A stretch of 64,000 nucleotides of DNA from Neisseria bacilliformis. GTDB lineage: Bacteria; Pseudomonadota; Gammaproteobacteria; Burkholderiales; Neisseriaceae. Location: positions 1,550,001 to 1,614,000 of the forward strand of contig NZ_CP059571.1 of NCBI RefSeq assembly GCF_014055025.1, read 5' to 3'. A program made the translations under genes and the position numbers. The notes beneath the pieces were generated by a model, which was not told the origin of the DNA, did not search any database, and worked only from the letters and a program-made list of their open reading frames with translations. Of the stretch, positions 4,462 to 37,600 are shown piece after piece. Numbering within the stretch: the first letter of the stretch is position 1; each line of letters starts with the position of its first letter.

Positions 4462-4502
4462 AGGCCGTCTGAAAAACTGTTTTACGGATTTTCAGACGGC
4501 CT
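4462..4502 (+). terminator. Uptake-sequence hairpin after sbp
   Basis: Inverted AGGCCGTCTGAA pair (4462-4473 and 4491-4502) 40 bases after the sbp stop codon. Confidence 0.7.
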
Positions 4503-4538
4503 CTTCCCATCCGCCCCGTACCGAACCCGGTGTAGCGG

Positions 4539-4602
4539 GCAGGTTGGATTGCAAACCGAACATTGGCCGGTTGCGTAGATGTTGGTCTCGACCCAACCTA
4601 CC
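4539..4602. repeat. REP-like palindrome, GTTGGGT family
   Basis: Two inverted arms, CAGGTTGGATTGCAAACCGA and TGTTGGTCTCGACCCAACCT, form a bipartite element of the same family that flanks the RAYT gene at 32357. A lone uptake sequence follows at 4610. Confidence 0.6.
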
Positions 4603-4688
4603 TTGGCTTTCAGACGGCCTCTTACGCTTCCGCCACACCCCAAAAACGTGTGCGTCGCTTCGGGCAACACACCCTACCCCAACGGCAG

Positions 4689-4720
4689 AGGCCGTCTGAA
4701 AATATATTTTCAGACGGCCT
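4689..4720 (-). terminator. Uptake-sequence hairpin after pyrG
   Basis: Inverted uptake pair with a short AT-rich loop, directly beyond the minus-strand pyrG stop codon at 4738-4740. Confidence 0.7.
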
Positions 4721-4737
4721 CTGTGTCGTTTCGGGCT

Positions 4738-6405
<1,668 letters not shown>

Positions 6406-6438
6406 TTAACGTTTCCCGCAGGCCGCCGCAACACAATG

Positions 6439-6493
6439 AGGCCGTCTGAAAAACGGGTTTCGGCTGCGCCGAAGCTGCGCTTTCAGACGGCCT
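6439..6493 (-). terminator. Uptake-sequence hairpin between hemA and pyrG
   Basis: AGGCCGTCTGAA (6439-6450) and its complement (6482-6493) flank a GC-rich insert. It lies 23 bases past the hemA stop codon. Confidence 0.6.
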
Positions 6494-6515
6494 CAATGCC
6501 TCGCTGCTGCTTCAA

Positions 6516-7778: not shown

Positions 7779-7931
7779 GGGAAAACGGGGGCGTGGGCGG
7801 AAAAAACGGTGCATTATAGCAAATTCAAACGCCCCTGCCGCCCGAAAGTGCCGCCGCAGGGCGGGATTGAAATCATGAATGGCGGCAATAAACGGCTCTT
7901 GCGCGCGCAGCGGGAAAAGCGCAAACAGGCG

Positions 7932-7937
7932 TATAAT
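7932..7937 (+). promoter_or_regulatory. Probable -10 element for ccoG
   Basis: A TATAAT hexamer about 75 bases before the ccoG start, in the hemA-ccoG divergent spacer. I see no convincing -35. Confidence 0.4.
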
Positions 7938-8012
7938 TGCGTGTTATATCAAGCGATAAATGCAAACAAAAACATTCCGCGAACCAAACCCCGACACCAA
8001 AAGGAACACATC

Positions 8013-9545: not shown

Positions 9546-9548
9546 ACC

Positions 9549-10118
9549 ATGACCGACCGGCAGCAATCGAAAGTCTGGTACAAAGAACCCTGGCCGTGGC
9601 TCTTAATGTCCGGCCCCCTCATCGTCGTTGTCGCCGCCTTCGCAACCCTCTGGCTCGCCGCCAACAACAACTCCGACCTCGTCAGCGACGACTACTACAA
9701 AGACGGCAAACACATCGACCTCGACATCAAGCGCGACAGTGCCGCCGTCGAGCGCGGCATCAACGCCCAACTGCTCATCAGCCCCGACGGCAGCGCGGCG
9801 CGCGTCTACGTCTCCGGCCGCTTCGACGACAAAGTCCCCCTGCGCCTCACCCTCATGCACCCGGCCAAAAAAGAATTCGACCAAAGCATCGAACTGCAAC
9901 GCTCCCCCGCCCCAAAATCCGGCGACAAAACCGAATACACCGGCCGCTTCGCCAAACTGCCCCCCTCGAAACACTGGTACGTCCGCCTCGAAGACACCGC
10001 CCGCGTCTGGCGCGTGGAAAACAAATGGATCGTCGGACAAGGCGGCGCGGTCAGCCTCAACCCCATGAAAAACCTCGCCGAAGCGGCGGGCAGACAAGCA
10101 GGCGGCGCGGCACACTGA
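9549..10118 (+). CDS. FixH family protein
   Basis: 189 residues. One N-terminal membrane helix (WPWLLMSGPLIVVVAAFATL) is followed by the family motif DDYYKDGKHIDLD and a periplasmic beta-rich domain with LRLTLMHPAKKEFDQSIEL and HWYVRLED. FixH is needed for cbb3 oxidase biogenesis next to CcoI/CcoS. It begins 3 bases after ccoG. The subunit genes ccoNOP are not in the window. Confidence 0.85.
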   Translation: MTDRQQSKVWYKEPWPWLLMSGPLIVVVAAFATLWLAANNNSDLVSDDYYKDGKHIDLDIKRDSAAVERGINAQLLISPDGSAARVYVSGRFDDKVPLRLTLMHPAKKEFDQSIELQRSPAPKSGDKTEYTGRFAKLPPSKHWYVRLEDTARVWRVENKWIVGQGGAVSLNPMKNLAEAAGRQAGGAAH

Positions 10119-10141
10119 ACACCCCGCCGCCACATACTTTG

Positions 10142-10204
10142 AGGCCGTCTGAAAAACATGTTTTACGGTTTCGGCTGCGCCGAAGCTGCGCTTTCAGACG
10201 GCCT
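10142..10204 (+). terminator. Uptake-sequence hairpin after fixH
   Basis: Inverted uptake pair around the same GC-rich insert (GGCTGCGCCGAAGCTGCGC) that is found at 6439-6493. Confidence 0.6.
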
Positions 10205-10212
10205 CAAAATCA

Positions 10213-11019
10213 GTAGGTCGGGCATTCATGCCCGACATGTTTAAATTTCCGACAATGGGCAGTCGGGCATAAATGCCCGACCTACGGATTTCGGTGGGAT
10301 GAGTGTAGGGTGTGTGGCGCAAGCCACGCACGCGGTTTCCTTCGCAGCGGTTGTCCGAAAGCAATTTAAAAAACGAAAGGCCGTCTGAAAAACCGTTCCA
10401 CAGTAGTAGTTGCAGGTCGGATTCTCGAATCCGACATTTTCCCGCAGCATCACCCCGCCGCGAGGGATGTCGGATACAAGTATCCGGCCTACGGCTGCCA
10501 ACAGGTAGTTGGCTGCGCCGAAGCTGCGCTTTCAGACGGCCTCAAAATCAGTAGGTCGGGCATTCATGCCCGACATGTTTAAATTTCCGACAATGGGCAG
10601 TCTGGCATAAATGCCCGACCTACGGATTTCGGCGGGATGAGTGCAGGACGTGTTGCCCCGAAGCAGCGCACATGGTTTCCGCGTGCGGCAGCCGTTCGGA
10701 CAATGCAATTCAAGAAGGCAAGAGGCCGTCTGAAAACGCGTTTTACGCTTTTCAGACGGCCTCTGCCATTCAACAGGCAGGTTGGATCAAGACACGACAC
10801 CCGCGCAACCCTGCCGATGTTGGGTTTGAACCCAAGCTACCCGCTGCCGCTAAGGTAGGGTGTGTCGCCCCGCGACGCACGCGTTCCCTGCCCTGCAACA
10901 CATGCCCGCATCCCGCAAGCCCAAAAACCGCGTGCGTGCCTGCGGCACACACCCTACGCAAAGGCTTGGAGGCTGTCTGAAAGCGCGGCTTCGGCGCAGC
11001 CAAAACCGTAAAACACGTT
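10213..11019. repeat. Mosaic of REP-like palindromes and uptake sequences
   Basis: No gene seen in this 800-base spacer. In order: a bipartite GTAGGTCGGGCAT/ATGCCCGACCTAC element (10213-10285); a GTAGGGTGTGTGGCGC repeat (10305); a GTCGGATTC/GAATCCGAC element (about 10412-10493); a second GTAGGTCGGGCAT element (10551-10623) almost identical to the first, followed like it by a copy of the GTGTGGCGC type; uptake pair 10723-10762; a GTTGGGT-family element (about 10780-10857); and two more GTAGGGTG-type repeats. The duplicated order of units suggests block duplication. Confidence 0.75.
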
Positions 11020-11020
11020 T

Positions 11021-11794
11021 TCAGACGGCCTCCAAGCCTTTGCGGCGGCCAAACCACAGCGCGGCGGCGAAAAACACCAACTGCGCCAGATTAAAGGTTG
11101 CGCCGCCAACCGCCGCCGCCACCGGCGAATGCGGGAACAGGCTGCACGACAACCCGACCGCCAGCCCGACAGGCAGCGGATTGAACCACGCGGCGGCGCA
11201 CGGCAGGCGGGTTTGCCCGCGCAGGGCCTGCACCAGCAGAATCAGAAATGCCGCCGCCGCGCAGCCCACAGAAGCCCACCAATGGACGGCGAGCATACGG
11301 TAGAAAGCGGCAAACTGCGCCAGCAGCAGCGCATGATCGGCAGGCGCGGCACTCGGCAGCGTCTGCGCCGACATACCCAGATAGTAAAAACCCGCATGCC
11401 CCAGCGGCGAGAGCGCGTAAGCCGCAAACAACAGCGCAAAACAGCACGCCGCCGCCCCGCTCCGCCGCATCAGCCGGTACACGCCGAAAGCGGCGGCCAG
11501 ATACAGTGCCGCAGAGAACGTGGCGGGCAATACGCCCCAAAACAGCCGTTCGGGCGAACCGTCCAGCATCAGCAAGGCCAAATCCGCTTTTCCATCCAAA
11601 TCCGCCGCCAGCGTTTGCGACAACAACGGATATTTTTCCGGCGCGGGCACAAAGCCCACCAGCAGCATATCCGCCGCCGCCCAGCAGACCGCCGCCAACG
11701 CGCCCGCCGCCAGCAGCGGCTGCGTGGCAATGACATGGCCGCCGCGTTTTTCAGACGGCCTTTCCGCTTCGGCCGCCGCATCTGTTTTGCCCAT
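11021..11794 (-). CDS. Hypothetical integral membrane protein
   Basis: 257 residues with about seven hydrophobic segments, for example AAGALAAVCWAAADMLLVGF, AALYLAAAFGVYRL, AACCFALLFAAYAL and LILLVQALRG. I do not recognise a function; the layout suggests a small conserved membrane family (possibly DUF6796-like), which I cannot confirm. The start at 11794 has a strong AAGGAGG five bases upstream. An uptake sequence (11750-11761) lies in frame near the N-terminus and encodes the RPSEK insert. The gene ends EAV because its stop is the TGA of the uptake sequence at 11020-11031. Confidence 0.7.
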   Translation of the reverse strand: MGKTDAAAEAERPSEKRGGHVIATQPLLAAGALAAVCWAAADMLLVGFVPAPEKYPLLSQTLAADLDGKADLALLMLDGSPERLFWGVLPATFSAALYLAAAFGVYRLMRRSGAAACCFALLFAAYALSPLGHAGFYYLGMSAQTLPSAAPADHALLLAQFAAFYRMLAVHWWASVGCAAAAFLILLVQALRGQTRLPCAAAWFNPLPVGLAVGLSCSLFPHSPVAAAVGGATFNLAQLVFFAAALWFGRRKGLEAV

Positions 11795-11825
11795 GGCATC
11801 CTCCTTTTCGTTTGCCGGCTGTTTG

Positions 11826-11856
11826 AGGCCGTCTGAAAAACGGTTTCAGACGGCCT
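11826..11856. terminator. Uptake-sequence hairpin upstream of the membrane protein gene
   Basis: Inverted uptake pair with a 7-base loop in the divergent spacer before the corC-like gene. It may act on either strand. A further single copy lies at 11944-11955, close to the next start codon. Confidence 0.5.
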
Positions 11857-11996
11857 CAAACGCCGTTCCGTTTCATATAAACCGCTGCGATTAAAGCACA
11901 TTCCCGCCCGCCGTCCAAACCGCCCGCGCCTGATGCGCGGTTTTTCAGACGGCCTTGATGGTAAAATGCCGCCGTTTTCCACTCTCCCACCGTTTG

Positions 11997-13292
11997 ATGA
12001 CCATCCTCCAAGCCCTTTTCGTCCTCGTGCTGCTGATTACCGTCAGCGCATTCGTTTCCAGTGCCGAACTCTCGCTGGCCTCGGCGCGCAAAATCAAGCT
12101 GCAAGTGATGGCCAAAGACGGCGGCGACACCCGCGCGCTCGACGTGCTCAATATGCAGCAGCAGCCGGGCAGCTTCATCACCATCGTCCAAATCGGCCTC
12201 AACGCCGTGGCGATTCTGGCCGGTATTGTCGGCGAAGCGGCGGTGCGCCCCTATTTCGCCGCTTGGTTTGCCCGTTTCGGCACTTGGGGTGAAACCACCG
12301 CGCCGCTGCTCACCTTCGTTCTGGTAACCGGCAGCTTCATCCTTGTGGCCGACCTGATGCCCAAACGGCTGGCCATAACCTATCCCGAAGCCGTGGCCGT
12401 GCGCATCGTGCGGCCGATGATGTTTCTGATTTTCCTGTTGAAACCCTTTGTCTGGATATTCGACGGCCTGGCCAACGCCGTGTTCAAGCTGCTGAAAATC
12501 CCCACCGTGCGCCAAGAGCAGCTCACCTCCGAAGACATCTACGCCGTGGTTGATGCCGGCGCGCAGGCGGGCGTGCTCAAACAGCAGGAACACTACCTGA
12601 TTGAAAACATCTTCGACATGCAGGCGCGCACCGTTACCTCCACCATGAGCACGCGCGAATACATTGCCTATTTCGACAAAAACGACGACAGCGCAACCGT
12701 GCTCGAAGCCATGTCGGAAAAGCCGCACAACAAATTCCTCGTTTGCGACGGCGACTTGGAGCGCGTCATCGGCTACATCGAATCGCACACCCTGTTAACC
12801 CTGTTTCTCAAAGAAAAAAGCGTGCGCCTCACCGACAAGCGCGTGCTGCGCAAAGCCCTGTTCATCCCCGACACGCTGTCGCTGTACGACGTGTTGGAAA
12901 CCTTCAAAACCTCGGGCGAGGATTTCGCCGTGGTCGTCAACGAATACGCGCTGGTGGTCGGCGTGGTAACGCTCAAAGACGTGATGAGCATCGTGATGGG
13001 CGAGCTGGTCAACACCGAAGAAGAGCCGCAAATCATCCGCCGCACCGAAGATACTTGGCTGGTGGACGGCGCGACCCCGCTCGCCGACGTCATGCGTGCG
13101 CTGGACATCGAAGCCTTCCCCAACTCGGAAAACTACGAAACCATCGCTGGCTTTATGATGTATTCCCTGCGCAAAATCCCGAAACGCACCGATTTTCTGG
13201 TGTACGGCCGCTACAAATTTGAAATCATCGACACCGAAAACCTCAAAATCGACCAGCTTTTGGTAACCCGGCAGGACGTTGCGGCAGATTGA
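11997..13292 (+). CDS. HlyC/CorC family protein (CNNM domain plus CBS pair)
   Basis: 431 residues. The first 190 residues form a CNNM (DUF21) membrane domain with the motif SSAELSLASARKIKL and later LVADLMPKRLAITYPE. A CBS pair follows (VTSTMSTREYIAYF, then VVVNEYALVVGVVTLKDVM), and the C-terminal CorC_HlyC domain contains EDTWLVDGATPLADVM. Such proteins are linked to magnesium or cobalt efflux or to hemolysin-like phenotypes. I use the ATG at 11997 because hydrophobic sequence begins at once; the longer frame to 11955 adds a basic, unmatched extension. Confidence 0.88.
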   Translation: MTILQALFVLVLLITVSAFVSSAELSLASARKIKLQVMAKDGGDTRALDVLNMQQQPGSFITIVQIGLNAVAILAGIVGEAAVRPYFAAWFARFGTWGETTAPLLTFVLVTGSFILVADLMPKRLAITYPEAVAVRIVRPMMFLIFLLKPFVWIFDGLANAVFKLLKIPTVRQEQLTSEDIYAVVDAGAQAGVLKQQEHYLIENIFDMQARTVTSTMSTREYIAYFDKNDDSATVLEAMSEKPHNKFLVCDGDLERVIGYIESHTLLTLFLKEKSVRLTDKRVLRKALFIPDTLSLYDVLETFKTSGEDFAVVVNEYALVVGVVTLKDVMSIVMGELVNTEEEPQIIRRTEDTWLVDGATPLADVMRALDIEAFPNSENYETIAGFMMYSLRKIPKRTDFLVYGRYKFEIIDTENLKIDQLLVTRQDVAAD

Positions 13293-21207: not shown

Positions 21208-21916
21208 GTCAACCCCTCATGAGTATAACCATGACCCAAAAGCCCCTCCCCCTGTTTGTTGCCGCCGCCCTGTTTGCCGCTTATGCACAGGCCGAAGAAG
21301 CGAAGCCGCCCGAGCAGAATACCGCAGTTGAAGCTGTTGAAGCGGAAGGAAAAGTTGCCGCCGTGGTGGTGCGCGGCAGCCGCAACACCCCGCGCCAGAG
21401 CGGCGACAATTACACCGTCAAAGGCAGCACCTCCGCTGCCAAGCTCGATTTGAAACTCAAAGAAACGCCGCAGAGCATCAGCGTGTTCACCCAGCAGCAG
21501 ATGCAGGATCAGAACCTGCAAAACCTCAACGATATTCTCGAAGAAACCCCGGGCATTACGGTAATTAACGATTCCATACCCGGCGTGAGCGATGCGGAAT
21601 ACTATTCGCGCGGCTTTCCTGTGGATAACTACCAGCTCGACGGCGTGATGGTCAGCTGTTCTATGCTTGGCGGGCGCACCGCGCAAGACAGCTTTTTATA
21701 CGACCGCGTGGAAGTGGTGCGCGGCTCGACGGGGCTGACAACGGGCGCGGGTGATCCGGCCGCCAGCATCAATTTTGTGCGCAAATGTCCCACTACCGCC
21801 AAAGCGGGGGCGTTAAATCTGAAATACGGCTCGTGGAACGACAAGCGCATCGAATTCGACTACGGCGGCGCGTTAAACGAATCGAAAACCGGCGTAAGTA
21901 ACAAAATGGAGGCTGA

Positions 21917-22885
21917 AAATCCCTGCAAGCCTTATCCTATAAGGCTTTAAAGAGGTTCAAAGGTTTTGAACACAAAAAATGCCTTTTCTGCGGCTCAAAA
22001 CAGGTCAAAAAGAACGGTGTCCGCAACGGCCTCCAATGCTACAAATGCCTCGCATGTGGCAGACAGTTTGACAGCGGCAGGCGGCCCAATCCGCAGACAC
22101 TGTGGCAAGCCTGCACATCAGGCAAACAAACCGCCGCACAGCTTGCACAAATCCACGGATGCAGCCGCCAAACCATCCTGCGCCATCTCAAAAAGGCCGC
22201 GCCAAAAGCACAGTTCGCCGCTCCGTCAACAGCCAACGTCATCATGGACGCCACCTACTTCGGCCGCACATTCGGCGTCATGGTTTTGTTCGACAGCATC
22301 AGCAGGCAGGCATTGTCTGTTGCCGAAGTCAAAAACGAAACCAACATGCTTTACGCCCAAGCAATAGGCCGTCTGAAAGCCAAAGGCATTGAAATCCAAA
22401 GCATCGTTTGCGACGGAAGGCGCGGACTGGCGCAGATGTTTCCCGATATTCCCGTACAGCTTTGCCACTTCCATCAGATACAAACCGTCCGACGCTACCT
22501 GACGCGCAACCCGCAAACCGAAGCGGGAAAGGCACTTTGGCGTTTGGCCCTAACGCTCAAAAACAGCACAAGAGCCGACTTTGAAAGCGGTTTGAAAGCA
22601 TGGTTTGACGAGCACAAAGACTTTTTAAACGAACGCACGAAGCAGCCTGAAACCGGCAAATCCCGCTACACCCATCCGAGGCTCGGAAGCGCGTATTTCA
22701 GCCTGAAACGGAACTTGGATAAGCTGTTTGTGTTCGAGCAATACCCCGGTTTGAGCATCCCAAACACCACCAATCTGCTTGACGGCATATTCTCCGACAT
22801 GAAACGGCTTTTGGCCTGCCATCAAGGGATGAAACAAGAAAACAATGTTAAGTTTATTAAGGACTATTTCTCTGTTGAATCGTAA
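21917..22885 (+). CDS. Transposase with N-terminal zinc ribbon, no canonical start
   Basis: The frame is open from 21917. It shows a zinc ribbon (CLFCGSKQVKKNG then CYKCLACGRQF), a helix-turn-helix (GKQTAAQLAQIHGCSRQTI), a first catalytic Asp in VIMDATYFGR, a second in IVCDGRRGL, the CHFHQ motif, and the end region IPNTTNLLDGIFSDMK. This order matches IS256-family transposases of the variant Zn-binding (IS1249) kind. The first ATG is 22244, which would remove the ribbon and helix-turn-helix. An ATG at 21906 opens a 14-codon frame that ends at 21950 in another register, so a frameshift or a CTG start (21923) is possible. In the last motif Asp stands where I expect the catalytic Glu. Confidence 0.75.
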   Translation, partial: KSLQALSYKALKRFKGFEHKKCLFCGSKQVKKNGVRNGLQCYKCLACGRQFDSGRRPNPQTLWQACTSGKQTAAQLAQIHGCSRQTILRHLKKAAPKAQFAAPSTANVIMDATYFGRTFGVMVLFDSISRQALSVAEVKNETNMLYAQAIGRLKAKGIEIQSIVCDGRRGLAQMFPDIPVQLCHFHQIQTVRRYLTRNPQTEAGKALWRLALTLKNSTRADFESGLKAWFDEHKDFLNERTKQPETGKSRYTHPRLGSAYFSLKRNLDKLFVFEQYPGLSIPNTTNLLDGIFSDMKRLLACHQGMKQENNVKFIKDYFSVES

Positions 22886-22888
22886 TGG

Positions 22889-22953
22889 CAGCCTCCATTT
22901 TGTTACTTAGACACAAAGCCCTCTGAAACAGCCTCCATTTTGTTACTTACGCC
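22889..22953. repeat. Tandem duplication of the right terminal repeat of the IS
   Basis: CAGCCTCCATTTTGTTACTT occurs at 22889-22908 and again at 22929-22948, spaced 40 bases apart. The outer copy borders the target duplication and is therefore the end used. Confidence 0.85.
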
Positions 22954-23405
22954 CGAAAACCCTCAAAGGCCGCTTTGTCGCCACGCTCGGGCACAGCAAC
23001 AGCTTTCTAGACAGAGTAAGGCAGCGTTCGCACGCGCTCTACAGCGTAGTCGAATGGTCGCCCGACAATAAAAACTTTCTCACCTTCGGCCACCGCCACC
23101 AGCACCGTGTTGTACGCGGCGCACCACGCAGAGGGGTTTCCCGCTACTCCCGCGTCAATTTGGGGCTAGACCCCAATACATATGAAGAGAAACTGGAATG
23201 GATAGATGCCCGCGACACCCCGCCGAATTTCAATAACGGCGCAGACTGGGCGTTTGACAAGCAAATAAATGACAATTTTTTTTATTGAATACAAGCACTT
23301 TTTTAATTCTAATCTTTCTCTTCAAACTACTTATAATCAAATCCGTAACAAACAGCATTTTCTTTATGGCGATATCGGCACAACAGGTTATGCACCAAAA
23401 TTAAA

Positions 23406-24197
23406 GGGGCTGTACTAGATAAGCCCTAAATTCCACACCACCGACGCAGCACTTTGAGCTGCTCGGAAGGTGTGCCAAAGTTAAAGGGGCTGTACTAGAT
23501 AAGCAGTCATGTTAGACTGCAAAAACGAAGATAACCCGTTGTAAGCTAAAAAGAGTATTCAAAAGAAACTGCTCCAATTTTTTGTACTCGAAGTTACCGC
23601 CCGTTCAGCTGCCAATTTATTGGGCATCCACCCCAATTCGGCAGTGCTGTTTTACCGCAAGGTTCGCGTAGTCATCAGCCATCATCTCTCGTTGGAAGCC
23701 GATATGGTTTTTAACGGCTCGGTCGAGTTGGACGAGAGTTATTTCGGCGGACACCGCAAAGGCAAACGCGGGCGCGGTGCGGCAGGCAAGGCGGCGGTTT
23801 TCGGTATTCTCAAACGCGGCGGCAAGGTCTATACCGTAGTGGTTGAAAACGCCAAAAGAGAAACCTTACTGACTGTTATCACAAAGAAAATCATGCCGGA
23901 CAGCATTGTCTATACGGATTGCCTGGGCAGCTATGACGTATTGGATGTGAGTGGCTTTACCCACCAACGCATCAACCACAGCAAGCTGTTTGCCGACAGG
24001 CAGAACCACATCAACGGCATTGAAAATTTCTGGAATCAGGCAAAGCGCGTACTGCGCAAATACAACGGAATCGACCGAAAATCTTTCCCGCTGTTCTTGA
24101 AAGAATGCGAGTTCCGTTTTAACTTTGGCACACCTTCCGAGCAGCTCAAAGTGCTGCGTCGGTGGTGTGGAATTTAGGGCTTATCTAGTACAGCCCC
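23406..24197 (+). mobile_element. IS1016-type (IS1595 family) insertion element
   Basis: Bounded by GGGGCTGTACTAGATAAGC at the left and its complement at the right. The left 80 bases (23406-23485) are an inverted copy of the right 80 bases (24118-24197), including the end of the transposase gene; a normal left end with the same terminal motif starts at 23486. The flanks share only AAATT (left AAATTAAA, right AAATTCAT), so an 8-base target duplication is imperfect. It interrupts the receptor between APK and FIPYGG. Confidence 0.85.
23545..24177 (+). CDS. IS1016-type transposase, 5' end degenerate
   Basis: The frame reads KKSIQKKLLQFFVLEVTARSA, then VELDESYFGGHRKGKRGRGA, IVYTDCLGSYDVLDVS, INHSKLFADRQNHINGIENF and FNQAKR-like NQAKRVLRKYNGI, all of which belong to the IS1016 group. 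The second Asp and the NGIEN region are present. The frame has a TAA at 23542-23544, while an ATG at 23509 lies upstream in the same register, so the protein cannot start there; a one-base shift near 23548 would restore a better N-terminus. TTG at 23620 is the first listed start but removes conserved residues. Probably inactive. Confidence 0.7.
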   Translation, partial: AKKSIQKKLLQFFVLEVTARSAANLLGIHPNSAVLFYRKVRVVISHHLSLEADMVFNGSVELDESYFGGHRKGKRGRGAAGKAAVFGILKRGGKVYTVVVENAKRETLLTVITKKIMPDSIVYTDCLGSYDVLDVSGFTHQRINHSKLFADRQNHINGIENFWNQAKRVLRKYNGIDRKSFPLFLKECEFRFNFGTPSEQLKVLRRWCGI

Positions 24198-25037
24198 AAA
24201 TTCATTCCGTATGGCGGTTTGATTGTCGAACTAACCCCATCTATTAATGCTTATGCCAGCTATGCGGGTATTGCCAAAGACAACGATACATTCGGTGTAA
24301 CCCAGTTTGACCGCCAGCCCAAAGGCGGCGGCAAATTTCCGCCGATTACAGGCAACTCGAAAGAATTCGGCATCAAAGGCGGCCTGTTTGACGACAAACT
24401 CAATTTTTCCCTCGCCTATTTCACCATGACGCAGAACGGCTACCCCTCCTTCAAGCCGACAGGCGTAGGCGAATGTAAAAGCTGGGACAGTTCGGGTCAG
24501 TGTATCAACCGCCCGCTGGAATACGATATTGTCAACGGCTACAAAAGCAGCGGTTACGACATCAATATCGCAGGGAAAATCACGCCGAAATGGCTGGTTC
24601 AGGCAGGCTTTACCAAGCTGAAAATCGGCAAACCCTACGCCTCTCCCAATTCCGACAGCGAATTGGGCGACGAGCTGAATATGGATTACGGCGAAACCTA
24701 TACCGCTCCCGCCAAAACTTTCAAATTCTTTACCCGCTATGATTTCACAGCGAAATTTGCCGCAGGTATCGGCATGAGATGGAACAGTGGCGTGAAGCCG
24801 AAACCTTGGGGACACGGAATGTCCAACGGCCAATATTATGTTTCAGACAAACCGAAGGAACTGTGGCAGTCTTCTTACGCTGTATGGAATGCGATGGCTT
24901 CTTACAAAATCAACAAACATGCTGCCGTTGCAGTCAATGTCGGCAATCTGTTCAACAAACGCTACTACACCAATGCACGGGGTAATTTTTACGGCAAACC
25001 CAGAAGTGTGAACGCAGCGATAAAAATAAGGTGGTAA

Positions 25038-25371
25038 TATAAAAATTTATTCATATAAAACAACAGTATTAAAATAAATATGGTTATTTGATCTGTTTTT
25101 GCTTGCGCCCTGTTAATTTTAGGATTAATATTCGTCCCATTAAATCCAAACGCCGCCGTAAGCCGCCGTAATTTCCGGCAGGCAACAAAAAAGCGGCATC
25201 AGCCGCCATTTCAGAACCCAAGCCATAAAACAGAATTCCCGCAGCAATGCGGAAAAAAACTTGACCCGCTGCTGTCTCTTAAAATTTCAGTTTCGGGAAG
25301 CAGCGAGTCAAGAAACGGGAATGCGCTACACGCATTTCAATTTTCTTATCCGTTAAAGGAGTTATTGTATC
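25038..25371 (+). other. Structured leader region before the hemophilin-like gene
   Basis: No gene seen. An inverted repeat with 14-base arms and one mismatch (CTTGACCCGCTGCT at 25260-25273, AGCAGCGAGTCAAG at 25299-25312) spans a 25-base loop. Just before it, CGCAGCAATGCGGAAAAAA forms a small hairpin. At about 25184-25206 AAAAAAGCGGCATCAGCCGC would read as a terminator on the minus strand. AAAGGA (25355-25360) is the probable ribosome site. Confidence 0.5.
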
Positions 25372-26375
25372 ATGGCATCAAACACCGTAAAAAGTCTTGC
25401 CCTCATTGCAGCCCTCTTCGCCGCCCAATCGGCTTCCGCCGTAGATTGGAACGGCTAGCGCGTTAACCTGAACGAGCATTCGCCCTACGACAAATCTGTT
25501 GACGGCGTATATGCCGGATCATTTACTTACGGCCGCCAGACCTATGGCCCGTCCATTGCCGTTGCCGGACAGAACGGCCGCAAGGTAACGCAGACCACCA
25601 TCGCGCTGAACACTTTCGCACCCGACAAACTGCACAACGCTCAGGTGAAAGACCCGGCCTACAGCGACAAAACCAAGCTCGGCAACAACGGCTCGGCAGG
25701 CACGGATTCGAATATGGTCTACAGAATCTACCGGCAGAAATATTCCGGTGTTCTGGCCAACGTTACCAAGCTGAAATCGGACGGTACCAAATACAAAAAC
25801 CGTAATTTTGTCAAGCACATTGTCGGCGACAACACCAAACTCGCCAATCTGCCGAAATCGGGTACTTTCCGCTATCACGGTATGGCCTTTACCAACTTCC
25901 CGCAGGGCGATTTCAACTATCAAATCGATCTGGCCAGCAAACGCGGCAAGGGTGATTTTACGCTGAACAAACTGCTGGTGCCTGCCGCATGGATTGACAA
26001 CTCTACTGACTCCCGTTTGGCTGTGGAAAAAGCCGGTAAAGAGAAAGGTCTTAACCGCTTCATCAATGTGGCTGGCACGTTGAAAGAAGCTCCGATTGTT
26101 GCCAATGCCAACGGCACACTGGGCGTAACCGACGGCAAAGCAGAAGTGCGCGGTGCTGCTGCTACTGAAAAAGGCAAGCAGTATATTTTACCAACGCTGC
26201 CGCTGCCCAAGCTGCGTATGATTTGGTTACAAAAAATCATAAAGCAAAAATCTACGGCGACGTTGACCCGCGCTACACTCTGAACGTGTACGGCCCGAAC
26301 GGCGAAGAAGTTGCCAGCTTCGTCAACGGCCTGCCCGACCGCGTCGGCGGCGTAGCCATCATCGGCAAACGCTGA
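25372..26375 (+). pseudogene. Hemophilin-like secreted protein (probable Slam substrate), inactivated
   Basis: The ATG at 25372 begins a signal peptide (NTVKSLALIAALFAAQSASA) without a lipobox, as for soluble secreted hemophilins. A TAG at 25456 cuts the frame after 28 codons. It then stays open to about 26190, where a one-base shift moves it to another register that completes FTNAAAAQAAYDLVTKNHK and a C-terminus of YTLNVYGPNGEEVASF and VGGVAIIGKR, ending at 26375. That C-terminal pattern is what I expect of the beta-barrel domain of Slam-dependent proteins (TbpB, HpuA, hemophilin). Neighbours support the call: a TonB receptor upstream and a Slam gene downstream. Heme as ligand is inference. 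Confidence 0.6.
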
Positions 26376-26436
26376 TATGCCCTTGCAAAAGCGGGTTGCG
26401 GCACAATCCGCTTTTTTTGCCGCCCCGAGAAACGTT

Positions 26437-26524
26437 TTCAGACGGCCTCTGCCCCCTTAGGTAGGGTATGTCGCCCTAAGGCAGCGCACACGTTCCGGCC
26501 GTCCGCAAGCCGAGGCCGTCTGAA
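26437..26524. repeat. Uptake sequences and a GTAGGGT-type repeat
   Basis: A reverse uptake sequence at 26437-26448 and a forward one at 26513-26524 flank a GTAGGGTATGTCGCCCTAAG repeat in the short spacer before the Slam gene. Confidence 0.6.
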
Positions 26525-26551
26525 AAAACAAACCCGCCCCGCTCTATACCC

Positions 26552-28075
26552 ATGTTCCCGAAAAAAACCGTCCCGCTGCTCCCCTTGCTGTTTTTCACCC
26601 TCTCCTCCGCGCCCGCCCTTGCCGACGACCCCTCCGCCAAAATCCAAACCACCCCCGAATCCGGCCTGCTGCGCGGCCTTGCCGACGATTTGGAAAGCCG
26701 CCGCGAACAGATCGAAACCAACAGCGGCCTGCGCAAAAAAAAAAACGCCGCCGCGCAGGAGGAAAGCGAAGACATCCCCGATTTGGACGACGAAGATTTG
26801 AAAAAACATCCCGAGCTGGCCAACCGCGTGTTAAACGCCGCCATGCTCTCCGAAGACTGGGACACACTGGAACACGTTTCCGGCTTCTACCACGACATCC
26901 CCGGCCACGACCCCGTGCTGGACGCCTATGTGCGCGGCGCGCTTTTGCGCGCGCAGGGCAGGCCGGGCAAGGCCGCGAAGGTGTACCGCGACATCTTGCG
27001 TCAACATCCCGATTTGAGCTATGTCCGCCTCGATTTGGCGGGCATGCTGTTTGAAAACCGCGCCTACAAAGACGCGACCAAAGAGTTTGAACAGGCCAAA
27101 CGCGAAGACATCGAACCCGAAGCGGCGGCGCAGGCCGACGCCTATCTGGCGGCGGTGAAACAGGCCGACCCATGGCAGATCAGGCTGCGCGGCGGCTGGC
27201 AATACGGCAACAACACCAACAACGCCACCTCCAACGACTACTTCCTCTGGCCGTTTGCCGTAGTCGGCAGCATAACCTACTACTACAAACTGCCGCGCGA
27301 CCCCGAAAGCCTGCCACAGCGGCAGCGGCATCAGCTACGGCGCGCAAATCGGCAAAGACACCAACCTCGCAGGCAACCACAACATCGGTTTCAACCTCGA
27401 AGCCGAAGGCGTGCGCTACCCGCACTAGCGCGACGACGACGAATTTTCCCTCTCCCTAGACGCAGGCTACAAATACCGCACGCTCAACAACACCTTCGCC
27501 CTCACACCCCGCTCGTTTCCGCCTCATGGCTCGGCGGCCGCCAATACAGCCGCAACACCGGCGCAAACGCCTCGTTTTCCCGCTGGGCAACCCCCCGCCT
27601 GCAACTCTCCGGCGCGTACACCTTCATCCGCAAAAAATACCGCGACGAACGCTACGCCGGCTACAACGCCGCGCTCAACGGCCTCTCCGCCTCCGCCGTC
27701 TACGCGCCCTCACCCCAAACTGGTTCGCCTTCGGCGGCCTCGGCGTGCAGCGCGAAAAAACCGACGATAAAGAAGAAACCTCCACCCGCCGCTTCGCCAA
27801 CCTCGGCACACTCTACCGTTTCGCCAACGGCACCAACATCCGCATCGGCGGCCGCTACGTCTCCCGCAAATTCGCCCGCCCCGCCGCCCTCTACGGCGGC
27901 ATCACCCGCAGCGACTGCGAAACCTACGCCGACGCTTCGGTGTGGAAAGAAAAATGGCTGCCCGGCGGCATCACCCCCTAAGCTGGAATTCTCCTACCTC
28001 AAAGTCAGAAGCAACATCTACGCCTTCCCGCGCAACAAAAAACAGATCTCCTTCACGCTGGAAAAAGAGTTTTGA
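26552..28075 (+). pseudogene. Slam (surface lipoprotein assembly modulator) with two scrambled segments
   Basis: One frame stays open for 507 codons. It begins with a signal peptide (VPLLPLLFFTLSSAPALA), a Slam N-terminal TPR-type domain (GALLRAQGRPGKAAKVYRDIL, YVRLDLAGMLFENRAYKDA) and barrel strands up to ITYYYKLPRDPES. Between about 27312 and 27505 the family-like sequence (GISYGAQIGKDTNLAGNHN) lies in another register and contains a TAG at 27426; from 27505 to 27712 the main frame is right again (SASWLGGRQYSRNTGANASF). A second out-of-register stretch runs to about 27970 (WFAFGGLGVQREK lies in the other frame), and the end KQISFTLEKEF is right again. About 150 barrel residues would be wrong, so function is unlikely. 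Confidence 0.75.
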
Positions 28076-28095: not shown

Positions 28096-28127
28096 AGGCC
28101 GTCTGAAAACCGCTTTTCAGACGGCCT
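28096..28127 (+). terminator. Uptake-sequence hairpin after the Slam gene
   Basis: Tight inverted uptake pair 20 bases past the stop codon. Confidence 0.65.
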
Positions 28128-31768: not shown

Positions 31769-32036
31769 ATGACCGAAAAACAAATGAAAGTCCTGTCCGT
31801 CGTCGCCACCCTCACCGCCGTCGGCATGTACGTCTCCTACATCCCCCAGATCCAAAACAACCTCAACGGCCAGCCTGGCTCATGGCTGCAACCCCTCGTC
31901 GTCGCCGTCAACTGCACCCTCTGGGTCGCCTACGCCCTGCTGAAAAAACAACGCGACTGGCCCGTCGCCCTCGCCAACGCCCCCCGGCATCTTTTTAGGT
32001 CTCATCACCTTTATTACCAGCATCATCAAATTCTAA
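31769..32036 (+). pseudogene. SemiSWEET-type sugar transporter, frameshifted near the C-terminus
   Basis: Reads MTEKQMKVLSVVATLTAVGM, YVSYIPQIQNNLNGQPGSWL and VAVNCTLWVAYALLKKQRDW, a three-helix PQ-loop half-transporter that works as a dimer. A run of six C (31980-31985) throws the frame, giving a short basic tail that ends at 32053. With five C the frame continues as the third helix, NAPGIFLGLITFITSIIKF, and stops at 32036. Either a slippage site, an inactivating mutation or a sequence error. An uptake-sequence terminator follows. Confidence 0.75.
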
Positions 32037-32042
32037 ATAAAG

Positions 32043-32074
32043 AGGCCGTCTGAAAAGCCTTTTTCAGACGGCCT
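32043..32074 (+). terminator. Uptake-sequence hairpin after the SemiSWEET gene
   Basis: Tight inverted uptake pair flanked by GAG/CTC. Confidence 0.65.
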
Positions 32075-32186
32075 CGATACGATAGCCAAATCTCACAAGG
32101 CAGCCTGGCTTGCAAATCCGACACAAAAACAGATAGCTTACCGGTTCGAGACCTAAGCCACGCCTGCCGAAAACGGATTAAGCACA

Positions 32187-32330
32187 GTAGGTTGGGTTGA
32201 AAACCCAACACAAAACAGACAATTTAACAGTTTTGTTGGGTCAAGACCCAACCTACGGGTTTCAGACGATCCCAGCCGATGTCGGATACCGCACGGTAGC
32301 TTGGGTTGCAAACCCAACACCAACCAACAA
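32187..32330. repeat. REP palindromes upstream of the RAYT gene
   Basis: A bipartite element 32187-32256 with arms GTAGGTTGGGTTGAAAACCC and TTGGGTCAAGACCCAACCTA, then a single arm at 32296 (GTAGCTTGGGTTGCAAACCC). These belong to the same family as the elements at 4539, about 10780, 13404, 32901 and 38131. Confidence 0.8.
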
Positions 32331-32356
32331 TAAATAAAAACCAAAAGGAGCAAGCC

Positions 32357-32887
32357 ATGCAATACCGCCGCGCGTTTACCCCGGGCGGCAGCTATTTCTT
32401 CACGCTTGCCCTGCAAGACAGAAAACAAGATTTGCTGGTGCGCTATATTGATGCCCTGCGGCAGGCGTTTGCCGAAGTAAAAACGCGGCATCCGTTTGAA
32501 ATTACCGCCGTATGCGTATTGCCCGATCATCTGCACCTGCTGGTAAAACTGCCCGAGCACGACCAAAACTACCCGATGCGCCTGCGCATGATTAAAGCCA
32601 AGTTTTCTCAGGCATTGCCGAAAATCGAAAACGTTTCCCCTTCGCGCAGGCAGAAAAACGAGCGCGGCATTTGGCAGCGGCGTTATTGGGAACACAAAAT
32701 CCGCAACCAAGAGGATTTGAACGCCCATATCGATTACATCCATATCAACCCTGTCAAACACGGTTATGTTGCCCGCGTGGCGGATTGGCCGTATCCCTCG
32801 TTTCACCGTTATGTGTGGCAGGGCATATTGCCCGCAGCTTGGGCGGGCGGAGATATGGACGGAGACAGCGGTTTCGGAGAACCATAG
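32357..32887 (+). CDS. REP-associated tyrosine transposase (RAYT, Y1 family)
   Basis: 176 residues. It starts MQYRRAFTPGGSYFFTLAL and has the HUH-type metal motif in CVLPDHLHLLVKLPE, then RRYWEHKIRNQEDLNAHIDY with the catalytic-Tyr region and IHINPVKHGYV. RAYTs are domesticated IS200/IS605-like enzymes thought to mobilise REP palindromes as single strands. The gene sits between REP elements on both sides, which supports a working pair. AAGGAG precedes the ATG at 32357; an upstream ATG at 32306 lies within a REP and is not used. Confidence 0.9.
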   Translation: MQYRRAFTPGGSYFFTLALQDRKQDLLVRYIDALRQAFAEVKTRHPFEITAVCVLPDHLHLLVKLPEHDQNYPMRLRMIKAKFSQALPKIENVSPSRRQKNERGIWQRRYWEHKIRNQEDLNAHIDYIHINPVKHGYVARVADWPYPSFHRYVWQGILPAAWAGGDMDGDSGFGEP

Positions 32888-32900
32888 GTAGCGGGTTACG

Positions 32901-32972
32901 GTAGGTTGGGTTGCAAACCCAACACGGGGCGGATGATTTAACGGATTTTGTTGGGTTGAGACCCAGCCTACG
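32901..32972. repeat. REP palindrome downstream of the RAYT gene
   Basis: Bipartite element with arms GTAGGTTGGGTTGCAAACCC and TTGGGTTGAGACCCAGCCTA, 13 bases after the RAYT stop codon. Confidence 0.8.
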
Positions 32973-33501
32973 CTTGCTTGGATTTACAGCCGTTAATTTC
33001 AGGTTGTCTGAAAAGTAAAAAACAGCCTGCACAACCTGATTAGTTTACAGAACCCTTAGCCCCAACAGCCACCCGTCCTCTCTCCCGCGGGAGAGAGTTA
33101 GAGAGAGGGTAACAAGCCGCAAGGCTTGTATTTGGGCGGTTAGGGTGTTGGGAAAGATTGCCGCAACTCGGAGAATGCCCTCTCCCCAACCCTCCCCCAC
33201 GGGGGAGGGAGCGGGTTACAGCAGATTCAGGCGTTGCAGGTCGTCTGAAAAAGAATGCCTGAAATATCAACGGCAGGAATTTTTCAGGTAGCCTTTATCG
33301 CAAGGCAGATGGAGCAGACGCCGCGAGCGTTTTTCAGACGGCCTTTGAACCCATCGGTAGCGTGTGTGGTGCAAGGCACGCGTGCGGTGGGTTGGGGTTT
33401 CAGGGAAAATGAAGAACGCGTGCGTACTGCACACACCCTACATGCAGGCTACGGCTTGCTATGTTAAATAATTTACATATAGTAATTTGAAGGAACATAA
33501 C
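32973..33501. repeat. Repeat spacer before the nuclease-like gene
   Basis: No gene seen. It holds two uptake variants, AGGTTGTCTGAA (33001) and AGGTCGTCTGAA (33238, the dialect described for the N. mucosa group), palindromic CTCTCCCGCGGGAGAG and CCTCCCCCACGGGGGAGG repeats, a standard uptake sequence (33333-33344) and GTGTGGTGC-type repeats. Base composition turns AT-rich from about 33465, marking the start of the foreign gene. Confidence 0.65.
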
Positions 33502-34596
33502 ATGATAAGCGAGACACAATATGAACAAGAACTACGACTCTTTTTATCACAAACTCTATCAATTAAAGTAAATGCACAAACTCCGATAAAGATAAAAGAT
33601 CATTGTTGGTATGCTGATCTTGATTTTTTTTATGAAAATATACATTATTTAGTAGAAATAAAATACTACCGATCTCCACTGATCCAATTAGATGTATTAT
33701 ATCGAGGTGCTGAACAGGCAACAAAATATGCTCAGTATTCTCAAAAAAATTCAGTACCAATTCTAATTGTTAATTGCCATGTAGAACTTAGCCAAAGGGA
33801 AGAATTAGAAAAATATTTCCCATCTTTAATTCTTATAGATAGAAATAATATACTTAAAACTGGGTACTTCAATACTGCTTACTTTCCTGAACTTAAAGAT
33901 TATGCATATATAAGTAACGAGGATAAAAGTATTATAGACTTGCTTGCAGCAAAAAAAGAAATTAAAAGTATAATTGGAAAAGATAACTCTCTGTTAGAAA
34001 AAATTATTAACGAGAGTGGGAAACTAGCTCAAGAACTAAGAAATCTTGAAACAGGCAGAAAAAATAATGCCTGGAAATCTTATGAAGAGCTATGCGTCCG
34101 AATTATTCATCATTTATTCCGTGATCATTTGCGCAAATGGAATAAGGATAGTATCCAAGAAAATCTACACAAATTTTACCAACGTTCTATTATTAATGAA
34201 GAAACTGAAGAAACATTCCAATATAGAGATTTAGTTGTCCCCATTAATGATTATGACAAACTTCCAGTTTTTTGGAAATTTATTCGAGAAACATTAAATT
34301 GTTATTATATAACTTTTGAATTTAAAAATTACACAAATAAAATTAAACAAGAGCAAATTCATCTAACAGAAAAATATCTTTTGAAAACAGCTTTTCGTTC
34401 TGTTGCAATTATTTTTACTCGTAAGGGAGTTGATGATAATGGTAAATTTGCTATTAATGGAGCAATTAGAGAAAGTGGTAAAGTAATTATTGTGTTAAGT
34501 GATAATGATGTATACGAAATGCTTAACAATTCTTCGGATGCTACAGATTTATTATTTGGAAAAATTGACAACTTATTTTTGGATCTATCTAAATAA
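33502..34596 (+). CDS. Orphan protein with two PD-(D/E)xK-like nuclease motifs
   Basis: 364 residues, strongly AT-rich and rich in Lys, Asn and Ile, unlike every neighbour, so probably acquired. The N-terminal part has Asp39/Asp41 and Glu52-Ile-Lys54 in DLDFFYENIHYLVEIKYYRS. The C-terminal part has a helix YEELCVRIIHHLF, Asp243 in YRDLVVPI and Glu273-Phe-Lys275 in ITFEFKNYTNK, then VIIVLSDNDVYEML, an arrangement seen in Mrr-like restriction endonucleases. A role in DNA restriction or phage defence is inference; no methyltransferase or partner is next to it. The ATG at 33502 has AAGGA 7 bases upstream. It ends 19 bases before carB. Confidence 0.7.
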   Translation: MISETQYEQELRLFLSQTLSIKVNAQTPIKIKDHCWYADLDFFYENIHYLVEIKYYRSPLIQLDVLYRGAEQATKYAQYSQKNSVPILIVNCHVELSQREELEKYFPSLILIDRNNILKTGYFNTAYFPELKDYAYISNEDKSIIDLLAAKKEIKSIIGKDNSLLEKIINESGKLAQELRNLETGRKNNAWKSYEELCVRIIHHLFRDHLRKWNKDSIQENLHKFYQRSIINEETEETFQYRDLVVPINDYDKLPVFWKFIRETLNCYYITFEFKNYTNKIKQEQIHLTEKYLLKTAFRSVAIIFTRKGVDDNGKFAINGAIRESGKVIIVLSDNDVYEMLNNSSDATDLLFGKIDNLFLDLSK

Positions 34597-34615
34597 AATA
34601 TAAGGACTATCCTCC

Positions 34616-37600
34616 ATGCCCAAACGTACCGACCTAAAATCCATCCTTATCATCGGCGCCGGCCCTATCGTTATCGGTCAGGCCTGTGAATTTGACTATT
34701 CCGGCGCGCAGGCCTGCAAGGCTTTGCGTGAAGAAGGCTATAAAGTCATTCTGGTGAATTCCAACCCTGCCACCATCATGACCGACCCTGAAATGGCGGA
34801 TGTTACCTACATCGAGCCGATTATGTGGCAGACGGTGGAGAAGATTATCGCCAAGGAGCGGCCCGATGCGATTCTGCCCACAATGGGCGGGCAGACCGCG
34901 CTGAACTGTGCGCTGGATTTGGCGCGCAACGGCGTGCTGGCGAAATACAATGTCGAGCTGATCGGCGCGACGGAAGACGCGATCGACAAGGCGGAAGACC
35001 GCGGCCGATTTAAGGAGGCGATGGAAAAAATCGGCCTCTCCTGCCCGAAATCCTTTGTCTGCCACACCATGAACGAAGCCTTGGCGGCGCAGGAACAGGT
35101 CGGCTTTCCGACGCTGATTCGTCCGTCTTTCACGATGGGCGGTTCGGGCGGCGGCATTGCCTACAATAAAGACGAGTTTTTGGCGATTTGCGAACGCGGT
35201 TTCGATGCGTCGCCCACGCATGAGCTGCTGATTGAGCAGTCCGTGCTCGGCTGGAAAGAGTACGAGATGGAAGTGGTGCGCGATAAGAACGACAACTGCA
35301 TCATTATCTGCTCGATTGAAAACTTCGACCCGATGGGCGTGCATACGGGCGACTCGATTACGGTTGCGCCGGCGCAAACGCTCACGGACAAAGAATACCA
35401 AATCATGCGCAACGCAAGCTTAGCGGTATTGCGCGAAATCGGCGTGGACACGGGCGGCTCGAATGTGCAGTTTGCGGTGAACCCTGAAAACGGCGAGATG
35501 ATTGTGATTGAGATGAACCCGCGCGTGAGCCGTTCGTCCGCGCTGGCTTCCAAGGCGACGGGCTTCCCGATTGCGAAAGTGGCGGCGAAGCTGGCGGTCG
35601 GCTTTACGCTGGACGAGTTGCGCAACGACATCACCGGCGGCCGCACGCCCGCGTCGTTCGAGCCTTCCATCGACTATGTCGTGACCAAAATCCCGCGTTT
35701 TGCGTTTGAAAAATTCCCCGCCGCAGACGACCGCCTGACCACGCAGATGAAATCGGTGGGCGAAGTGATGGCGATGGGCCGCACGATTCAGGAAAGCTTC
35801 CAAAAAGCCCTGCGCGGCTTGGAAACCGGCTTGTGCGGCTTCAATCCGAGAAGCTCCGACAAAGCGGAAATCCGCCGCGAACTGGCGAACCCCGGCCCTG
35901 AGCGTATGCTTTTTGTAGCCGATGCGTTCCGCGCAGGCTTCACGCTGGAAGAAATCCACGAAATCTGCGCCATCGACCCTTGGTTCTTGGCGCAAATCGA
36001 AGACTTGGTGAAAGAAGAGCAGCAGGTAAGTGCAGGCTGCCTGCAAGATTTGGATTTCGCCGCCTTACGTCGTCTGAAACGCAAAGGCTTCTCCGACAAA
36101 CGCATCGCGCAGCTTTTGGGCGTAAAAGAAAAAGAAGTGCGCGAACACCGCTACGCGCTGAACCTGCATCCTGTGTATAAACGCGTCGATACCTGCGCTG
36201 CCGAGTTTGCCACCGAAACCGCCTATCTCTACTCTACTTACGAAGAAGAATGCGAAGCGCGTCCTTCCGACCGTAAAAAAGTGATGATTCTCGGCGGCGG
36301 CCCGAACCGCATCGGTCAAGGCATCGAGTTTGACTACTGCTGCGTTCACGCCGCGCTCGCCCTGCGCGAATCGGGCTTTGAAACGATTATGGTGAACTGC
36401 AACCCCGAAACCGTATCCACCGACTTCGACACCAGCGACCGCCTGTATTTCGAGCCGCTGACGCTGGAAGACGTGTTGGAAATCGTCCGCACCGAAAACC
36501 CGTGGGGCGTGATTGTGCATTACGGCGGCCAAACCCCGCTCAAACTCGCCAACGCATTGGTTGAAAACGGCGTGAACATCATCGGCACGTCCGCCGACAG
36601 CATCGATGCCGCCGAAGACCGCGAACGTTTCCAAAAAGTGTTGAACGACTTAGGCCTGCGCCAACCGCCCAACCGCATCGCCCACAACGAAGAAGAAGCG
36701 CTCGTCAAAGCCGAAGAAATCGGCTATCCGCTGGTCGTGCGCCCCTCTTACGTCCTCGGCGGCCGCGCCATGCAGGTCGTCCACTCCGCCGAAGAGCTGC
36801 AAAAATACATGCGCGAAGCCGTGCAGGTATCCGAAGACAGCCCCGTGTTGCTCGACTTCTTCCTGAACAACGCGATTGAAGTCGATGTGGACTGCGTTTC
36901 AGACGGCCAAGATGTTGTGATCGGCGGCATCATGCAACACGTCGAACAGGCAGGCATCCACTCCGGCGACTCCGGCTGCTCGCTGCCGCCCTACTCGCTC
37001 AGCGAAGAAATCCAAGACGAAATCCGCCGCCAAACCAAAGCCATGGCCTACGCGCTGGGCGTGGTAGGCTTGATGAACGTACAGTTTGCCGTACAAGACG
37101 GCGTGGTGTTCGTGTTGGAAGTGAACCCGCGCGCCAGCCGTACCGTGCCCTTCGTCTCCAAAGCCACCGGCGTGCCGCTCGCCAAAGTCGGCGCACGCTG
37201 CATGGCAGGCATTTCCCTGCAAGAGCAAGGCGTGGAAAAAGAAGTCGTCCCCGATTTCTATGCCGTTAAAGAAGCCGTGTTCCCCTTTATCAAATTCCCC
37301 GGCGTGGACACCATTCTCGGCCCCGAAATGCGCTCCACCGGCGAAGTGATGGGCGTGGGCGAAACCTTCGGCGAAGCCTACCTCAAAGCCCAGCTCGGCG
37401 CAGGCGAACGCATGCCCGCCACCGGCAAAATCTTCCTTTCCGTGCGCGAAGAAGACAAGCCGCTTATCGTGAAAACCGCGCAAAACTTCCAAGCACTCGG
37501 CTACGGCGTTTGCGCCACACGCGGCACGGCAGGCTACCTGAAAGAGCACGGCGTGGTGGTGCAGGCGGTCAACAAAGTGCCCGAAGGCCGCCCGCACATT

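Follow-up and report, generated by a model that had tools for sequence, protein, structure and literature searches.

The closest described relatives of the locus reported here are the HphA/HsmA/HphR locus of Acinetobacter baumannii and the HrpABC locus of Xenorhabdus, in each of which a soluble cargo with a signal peptidase I (SPase I)-type signal peptide, a dedicated Slam and a TonB receptor are encoded together (PMC8560813, PMC8406197). Soluble Slam cargo has already been reported as common (PMC8406197), a receptor gene accompanies 120 of the 185 Slam clusters that include a lipoprotein (PMC5449769), and the cargo group of the type 11 secretion system (T11SS) that resembles factor H binding protein (fHbp), a vaccine antigen of meningococci, contains 54 lipoproteins and 285 soluble proteins (PMC12282271). 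In this study, we have analyzed a 64,000-nucleotide stretch of the Neisseria bacilliformis genome (contig NZ_CP059571.1, positions 1,550,001 to 1,614,000), referred to as the window, in which positions 21219-28075 of the forward strand carry, in this order, genes for a TonB receptor, a signal-peptide cargo with a Slam-substrate barrel and a Slam. The three genes had been recognized as consecutive in the first-pass annotation of this DNA, which also held that all of them are damaged, and both observations were confirmed: the receptor gene is split by two insertion sequences and has a deletion, the cargo a stop and a frame change, and the Slam frame changes and a stop. The locus is a pseudogene cluster, an inactivated copy of a conserved receptor-cargo-Slam operon, and in their intact form such operons represent a variant of the receptor-cargo-Slam (T11SS) systems already known.

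The intact operons were reached through the receptor. A receptor-alignment scan of genome contigs, restricted to two peptide patterns, returned 26 loci; a Slam was present in the fetched flanks of 5 of them and an fHbp-type cargo in 3. Corticimicrobacter populi (locus L142) and Paracandidimonas soli (L143), both Alcaligenaceae, have the receptor, a soluble cargo and the Slam in the window order, and their cargos formed two rows of a three-row profile that found the cargo in 7 of 399 Corticimicrobacter relatives at 1.8e-110 or better, L142 and L143 among the seven. Receptor, cargo and Slam follow one another on one strand in every one of these seven loci, with gaps (starts chosen by eye) of 160-257 bases between receptor and cargo and 9-168 bases between cargo and Slam. 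Matches to an extracytoplasmic function (ECF) sigma factor and to FecR adjoin the operon in all seven, as judged with home-made profiles built from four proteins each from these same loci; Pfam confirmed the assignment for the proteins submitted (FecR, four of four; ECF, four of four). In L143 the ECF/FecR genes lie downstream on the other strand. An STN domain was matched in five of the seven intact receptors, above the Pfam cut-off in L172 and L173 and below it in L142, L143 and L174.

Phylogenetic analysis of separate window pieces tied each of the three window proteins to these operons. In the Slam tree (43 taxa), the window Slam grouped with the seven intact Slams (support 0.993), apart from the sampled neisserial Slams; in the cargo tree (57 taxa), the window cargo likewise grouped with the seven (0.994), apart from the sampled neisserial fHbp-type proteins; and in the receptor tree (44 taxa, several receptors being included twice under two locus names), the window plug and barrel pieces joined the neisserial receptors, which in turn joined the seven (0.994 for the plug, 0.999 for the barrel). 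The inputs were Slam open reading frames (ORFs) of >430 amino acids and cargo ORFs of 230-360 amino acids with E<1e-20, and rows with >30% gaps (Slam) or >40% gaps (cargo and receptor) were excluded. With these trees, we have shown that all three window proteins are orthologous to those of the seven operons. In pairwise comparisons with the intact Corticimicrobacter proteins, the window cargo showed 38% identity over 236 positions (E 1e-32) and its C-terminal piece 47% over 36, and the window Slam showed 37% over 179.

The first-pass annotation had looked to other Neisseria for intact loci and had tied its proposal to the co-occurrence of intact relatives with Slam and receptor genes. Intact orthologous loci do exist, and the cargo is accompanied by both partners in seven of seven; however, they were found in Burkholderiales instead, and in none of the 82 other Neisseriaceae genomes was the cargo present at ortholog level. 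A family-profile search of all 83 Neisseriaceae genomes recovered an ortholog-level member only in the genome of the window, four others being matched at 2.1e-8 or weaker, and in a class-wide sample the same profile matched 1 of 350 genomes, again only its own. In the order sample, the single cargo piece matched 4 of 399 genomes at 1e-7, namely, its own genome and three fHbp-type matches, and a plasmid search left the cargo unmatched. With a single ortholog-level member in Neisseriaceae and one genome in 350 class-wide, the system is rare and patchy within the genomes searched; both old transfer and repeated loss are possible causes.

The receptor belongs, by its plug and barrel domains and its nearest relatives, to the FpvA/FauA/FhuE siderophore class. 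The PDB matches of the L142 receptor were led by ferripyoverdine (FpvA), ferric alcaligin (FauA) and FhuE receptors (9.8e-70 to 7.9e-60), with no heme receptor by name among the 25 matches listed. In NCBIfam, FauA and FhuE led for L142, L143 and two neisserial receptors, with TonB-hemin far weaker; against a TonB-siderophor cut-off of 223.5 bits, the scores were 225.5 (L143), 222.9 (L142), 218.8 (L088) and 175.1 (L087). These rankings bear out the earlier view that the receptor is siderophore type rather than a classic heme receptor. In the window, the N-terminal piece with the signal peptide and Plug domain (21219..21890, forward strand) matched Pfam Plug at 4.6e-18, above the cut-off, and FauA (3.7e-43) and FhuE (2.2e-41) in NCBIfam, both under the curated cut-offs; two intact neisserial receptors share 63% and 68% identity with it. 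The C-terminal barrel piece (24201..25037, forward strand; match piece 24201-25034) matched PF00593 at 8.4e-22 and is 62, 67 and 66% identical to three intact neisserial receptors. In an alignment of ten receptors, a long, variable segment precedes the C-terminal part of the barrel, with cysteines in the seven Burkholderiales receptors and none there in the three neisserial ones; this segment could be a docking site for the cargo.

The cargo gene (25372..26375, forward strand) encodes a soluble Slam/T11SS cargo with an fHbp-like barrel. Its signal peptide is of the SPase I type and lacks a lipobox, as judged by eye, and no lipobox-like motif and no cysteine were found in any of the seven intact cargos (starts chosen by eye). 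The piece at 25459-26226 matched Pfam FHBP_C at 3.2e-9 (38 bits against a cut-off of 28.1); therefore, the middle protein does bear a barrel domain related to Slam substrates, the absence of which the first-pass annotation had named as fatal to its proposal. FHBP_C was also above its cut-off in the L142 and L143 cargos. The window piece further matched the NCBIfam models factorH_bind and slam_lipo, both under their cut-offs (factorH_bind, 32.6 bits against 200), and factorH_bind was unmatched at 1e-5 in L142 and L143. The PDB matches listed below 0.001 for this piece were all factor H binding protein entries, some labelled just lipoprotein (2.2e-6 to 5.9e-4), and the remaining ones were at 0.46 or weaker. 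The cargo profile matched fHbp-type lipoproteins at 98.7% probability over 134 columns. The cargo thus shares the FHBP_C barrel with fHbp and the neisserial fHbp-type lipoproteins; unlike fHbp, it has no lipobox and has its own receptor gene, and in 20 loci with fHbp-type proteins (L022-L041) no receptor was found by profile. Its FHBP_C (Lipoprotein C) domain and soluble state also recall the mostly soluble fHbp-like group of PMC12282271, and the seven cargos may be among the 285 soluble proteins of that group, unnamed. The pairing of a Slam cargo with a TonB receptor is likewise shared with TbpB/TbpA, LbpB/LbpA, HpuA/HpuB and further Slam clusters that include a receptor; however, the cargos of those systems are lipidated and, where characterized, bind host proteins, whereas the cargo here is lipobox free, and its profile did not match a two-sequence HpuA alignment (0.4%).

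The third gene (26552..28075, forward strand) encodes a Slam with a TPR domain and a SlipAM/DUF560 barrel. TPR_Slam (PF24575) was matched at 1.9e-27 in the first 254 codons, which are open, and SlipAM (PF04575) was matched in pieces in three frames, at 7.1e-4 (below the cut-off) and at 6.8e-7 and 6.2e-10 (above); both domains are nearly full length in the L142 and L143 Slams. The profile searches that had been suggested for Slam and for the substrate barrel were therefore positive for TPR_Slam, SlipAM and FHBP_C alike.

An ECF sigma factor and FecR beside a siderophore receptor form the layout of ligand-induced siderophore uptake, as in FecIRA and FpvA. The intact operons resemble such systems in having an ECF sigma factor, FecR and an STN-bearing siderophore receptor, and differ from them in the addition of a secreted cargo and a Slam. 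In the window copy, Pfam and profile searches matched neither ECF nor FecR nor STN (for STN, the N-terminal receptor piece was searched in Pfam at E<=1), so FecIRA-type signalling is not indicated there. For fHbp, the best-known relative of the cargo, binding of ferric enterobactin and xenosiderophores in vitro has been reported, without a physiological role being shown (Veggi 2012, as cited in PMC5472700 and PMC4189776). Based on the siderophore-class receptor with ECF/FecR, the hemophore-like logic of the locus and the reported siderophore binding of fHbp, we favor the reading that the cargo of the intact operons is a secreted siderophore-binding protein that feeds its own receptor, and we consider this slightly better than an even bet. 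The cargo would be exported by Sec with removal of its SPase I-type signal peptide, and its own Slam would then carry it across the outer membrane by type 11 secretion. Outside the cell, the cargo would capture a ferric siderophore and hand it to the FpvA/FauA/FhuE-class receptor; in most of the operons the receptor would also signal via its STN domain to FecR and the ECF sigma factor, so that presence of the ligand would induce the operon.

Several points weigh against this reading, in which the siderophore is a predicted ligand. The receptors of L175 and L176 gave no STN match, and their FecR matches are short (ORFs of ~105 amino acids). No siderophore synthesis gene was noticed by eye beside the intact operons, whose flanks were not searched systematically, and whether siderophore binding by fHbp has a role is doubted in a review (PMC5472700). 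The structure prediction that had been proposed as a check did not add to the profile evidence: AlphaFold, run on an intact cargo with a three-sequence alignment, gave a mean predicted local distance difference test score of 31.3, so the fold is assigned from sequence. By BLAST, the TPR piece of the window Slam was nearest to the neisserial Slams of L092 (44%, 140 bits) and L093 (36%, 136 bits), the seven scoring 121-127 bits; the three barrel pieces (S2-S4) scored best with one of the seven intact operons. In addition, the neisserial members of the receptor clade stand alone (genome G018) or with other Slam cargo (a lipidated pair in L141; HpuAB in L139 and L140), and such variable partners suggest that the receptor and this cargo are not obligate partners in Neisseria. 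Finally, the seven intact cargos share one invariant histidine, and a FRAP/YRAP string, usable for a heme reading although NPNL is missing, occurs in all seven Burkholderiales receptors.

The last two features belong to the main rival explanation, that the cargo is a hemophore like HphA or hemophilin, which takes heme from hemoproteins and passes it to the receptor; we consider this unlikely. A second histidine is conserved in six of the seven cargos, and the hphA and hrp loci share the architecture of a soluble cargo with its own Slam and TonB receptor (PMC8560813, PMC8406197). However, heme is not bound by A. baumannii HphA with the substitutions H43A/H106A (PMC8560813), and in the window cargo the invariant histidine is replaced by asparagine and the six-of-seven histidine by tyrosine. 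The cargo family matched FHBP_C in eight of eight members and HphA domains in none of the eight (Pfam, E<=1), and no hemophilin by name was found in PDB searches of the window cargo piece (E<=10, 27 matches) or of A4 (E<=1, 8 matches). On the receptor side, TonB-hemin was far below the siderophore models and siderophore receptors led the PDB list of L142; the string NP[ND]L was present in none of ten receptors, and FRAP/YRAP in none of the three neisserial ones. Furthermore, the epithets of the two species with names refer to soil and poplar. Unlike in the HphA and Hrp systems, the cargo is FHBP_C rather than HphA, the receptor is of the siderophore class and ECF/FecR genes lie beside the intact operons; neither "sigma factor" nor "FecR" appears as a term in PMC8560813. 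The first-pass annotation had proposed a neisserial Slam/hemophilin-type system: the architecture of receptor, Slam substrate and Slam holds, whereas the hemophilin label does not.

Less probable again is the explanation that the cargo, on the surface or secreted, binds something else, such as a metal or a host or fungal protein, and that the receptor is merely coregulated. T11SS cargos are diverse and include adhesins, hemophores and metal-binding proteins (PMC12282271), and the neisserial receptor clade is found with different cargos or none. In 4 other genomes of the 83 Neisseriaceae, there are relatives of the window receptor that are 61-67% identical to it across the full barrel piece. 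In G031 (L087, the same contig as L141), the receptor is followed by two FHBP_C lipoproteins and then a Slam; in G023 and G026, it lies beside an opposite-strand Slam with HpuA and HpuB; and in G018, it stands alone. However, the receptor is directly upstream of the cargo in all seven intact loci, and the three trees agree.

Beyond the individual cargo, the intact operons may define a class of secreted "siderophore-phores", exported by Slam and feeding their own signalling receptor, iron-piracy proteins with which the fHbp family would share ancestry; this broader proposal is tentative, and we think it more apt to fail than to hold. If it is true, common ancestry would explain the siderophore binding of fHbp in vitro, in a family now known for immune evasion. 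The Slam-plus-receptor systems described so far concern transferrin, lactoferrin, hemoglobin and heme; here, an fHbp-type cargo is tied to a siderophore-class receptor with ECF/FecR. With the seven operons, the siderophore binding reported for fHbp, so far without an explanation, gains a specific partner, and the question becomes open to tests in environmental bacteria. The neisserial copy documents loss of the system, while members of the receptor clade survive in relatives, either unaccompanied or next to different Slam cargo. Neither "siderophore" nor "sigma" occurs in the main text of PMC12282271, and in the literature covered, which lacked most subscription journals, no siderophore link of this Slam cargo is known.

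The lesions of the window copy begin in the receptor gene. The plug piece is followed by insertion sequence A (~21891..22953, forward strand), which has 25-nucleotide perfect terminal inverted repeats and a Mutator-type transposase (PF00872, 7.6e-5, 22.2 bits, cut-off 21). The middle receptor piece (22954..23394, forward strand), with one frame change, is 50% identical to residues 212-320 and 52% identical to residues 316-359 of the L088 receptor. It is followed by insertion sequence B, of the IS1595 family (~23395..24197, forward strand; PF12762, 4.1e-31), which has an extra partial end, an 80-nucleotide perfect inverted repeat (23406-23485/24118-24197) and a 30-nucleotide direct repeat, and which sits where ~200 receptor codons are gone (residues 360-558 of the intact L088 receptor). 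The cargo has a TAG at 25456-25458, just past the signal peptide, and one frame change near its end, shortly before 26223, and in the Slam a TAG at 27426-27428 lies in the frame of one barrel piece. The decay is probably recent, to judge from pieces that retain 38-68% identity to intact relatives.

It is very unlikely that the cargo and Slam lesions are sequencing errors in functional genes. Frame changes can arise in assembly, and the lesions were judged from the assembled sequence; however, the receptor carries two insertion sequences and lacks ~200 codons, and the genes that flank the locus are open (named from their translations, pot-like transporter genes upstream and lldEFG-like genes downstream). 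Generally poor assembly is unlikely, since in addition to these open flanks the source genome is a complete single contig of 2.49 Mb (99.99% complete). The other receptor copy in this genome is also broken. That the three genes are unrelated neighbors, joined by chance or by insertion sequences, can be dismissed, since seven other genomes have these three orthologs side by side in conserved order, even if the two insertion sequences show the region to be open to rearrangement.

This second receptor copy lies on the minus strand of locus L091 (C1:2190000-2206000, ~7610-9670), with 89% DNA identity over 559 bases; it is broken into several frames and ends early, and no cargo or Slam piece was found beside it. 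Elsewhere in the same genome, at C1:2116938-2118813 (L112), another Slam lies beside an FHBP_C protein, both without stops, so the genome keeps another Slam pair.

Among other neisserial loci, the window cargo piece matched at E<=0.001 in 24 of 46 genus genomes and 26 of 83 family genomes, its own included, the others being 26-43% identical over parts. From these partial matches the cargo had been considered a mere further fHbp paralog, a view that was rejected once the receptor-guided search found orthologs. The metagenome-assembled genome locus L141, with its receptor, two FHBP_C lipoproteins and Slam, was rejected as an intact ortholog because its cargos and Slam are not the closest to those of the window; its two lipoproteins, in tandem between the clade receptor and the Slam (9983-12052), are 68% identical to each other. 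We examined 87 neisserial loci, a part of the FHBP_C/Slam matches of the family, among the matches listed. The fHbp profile found 80 ORFs in them, 69 with a lipobox-like motif; the other 11 mostly look truncated or have doubtful starts, one (L133) having a plain signal peptide. An fHbp-type ORF and a Slam occurred together in 24 of the 87 loci, and a receptor as well in 1 of these 24, L087.

Some of these loci have features of their own. In L133 (G018, 5730-9183), a soluble-looking protein with a weak fHbp-profile match (3e-6) is followed by a Slam, with no receptor found by profile within the locus. The Slam-adjacent lipoprotein of L055 (G006, 6056-7498) has a long EEARKA repeat ahead of its barrel and resembles the Pls-like cargo group of PMC12282271. 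A 935-residue lipoprotein encoded two genes from a Slam in L096 (G033, 2473-5277) did not match the fHbp profile and is a possible unusual cargo. In two Neisseria (L089 and L090, compared with L088), the receptor is separated from a bamD-like gene (named from reading) by a Slam-HpuA-HpuB cluster; this cluster is missing from the corresponding position in G018, a pattern that resembles gain or loss of the entire module.

The window contains 114 copies of the AG-type DNA uptake sequence (AG-DUS) AGGCCGTCTGAA and none of ATGCCGTCTGAA. An inverted pair (28096..28127), with AGGCCGTCTGAA at 28096 on the forward strand and at 28116 on the reverse strand, lies 3' of the Slam and possibly serves as a terminator. 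The GC content is 48-57% in the receptor pieces, 53% in the cargo and 61% in the Slam, against 60% for the window, and it points to no clear donor. Downstream of the locus, at 32001-36000, the GC content falls to 46-49%.

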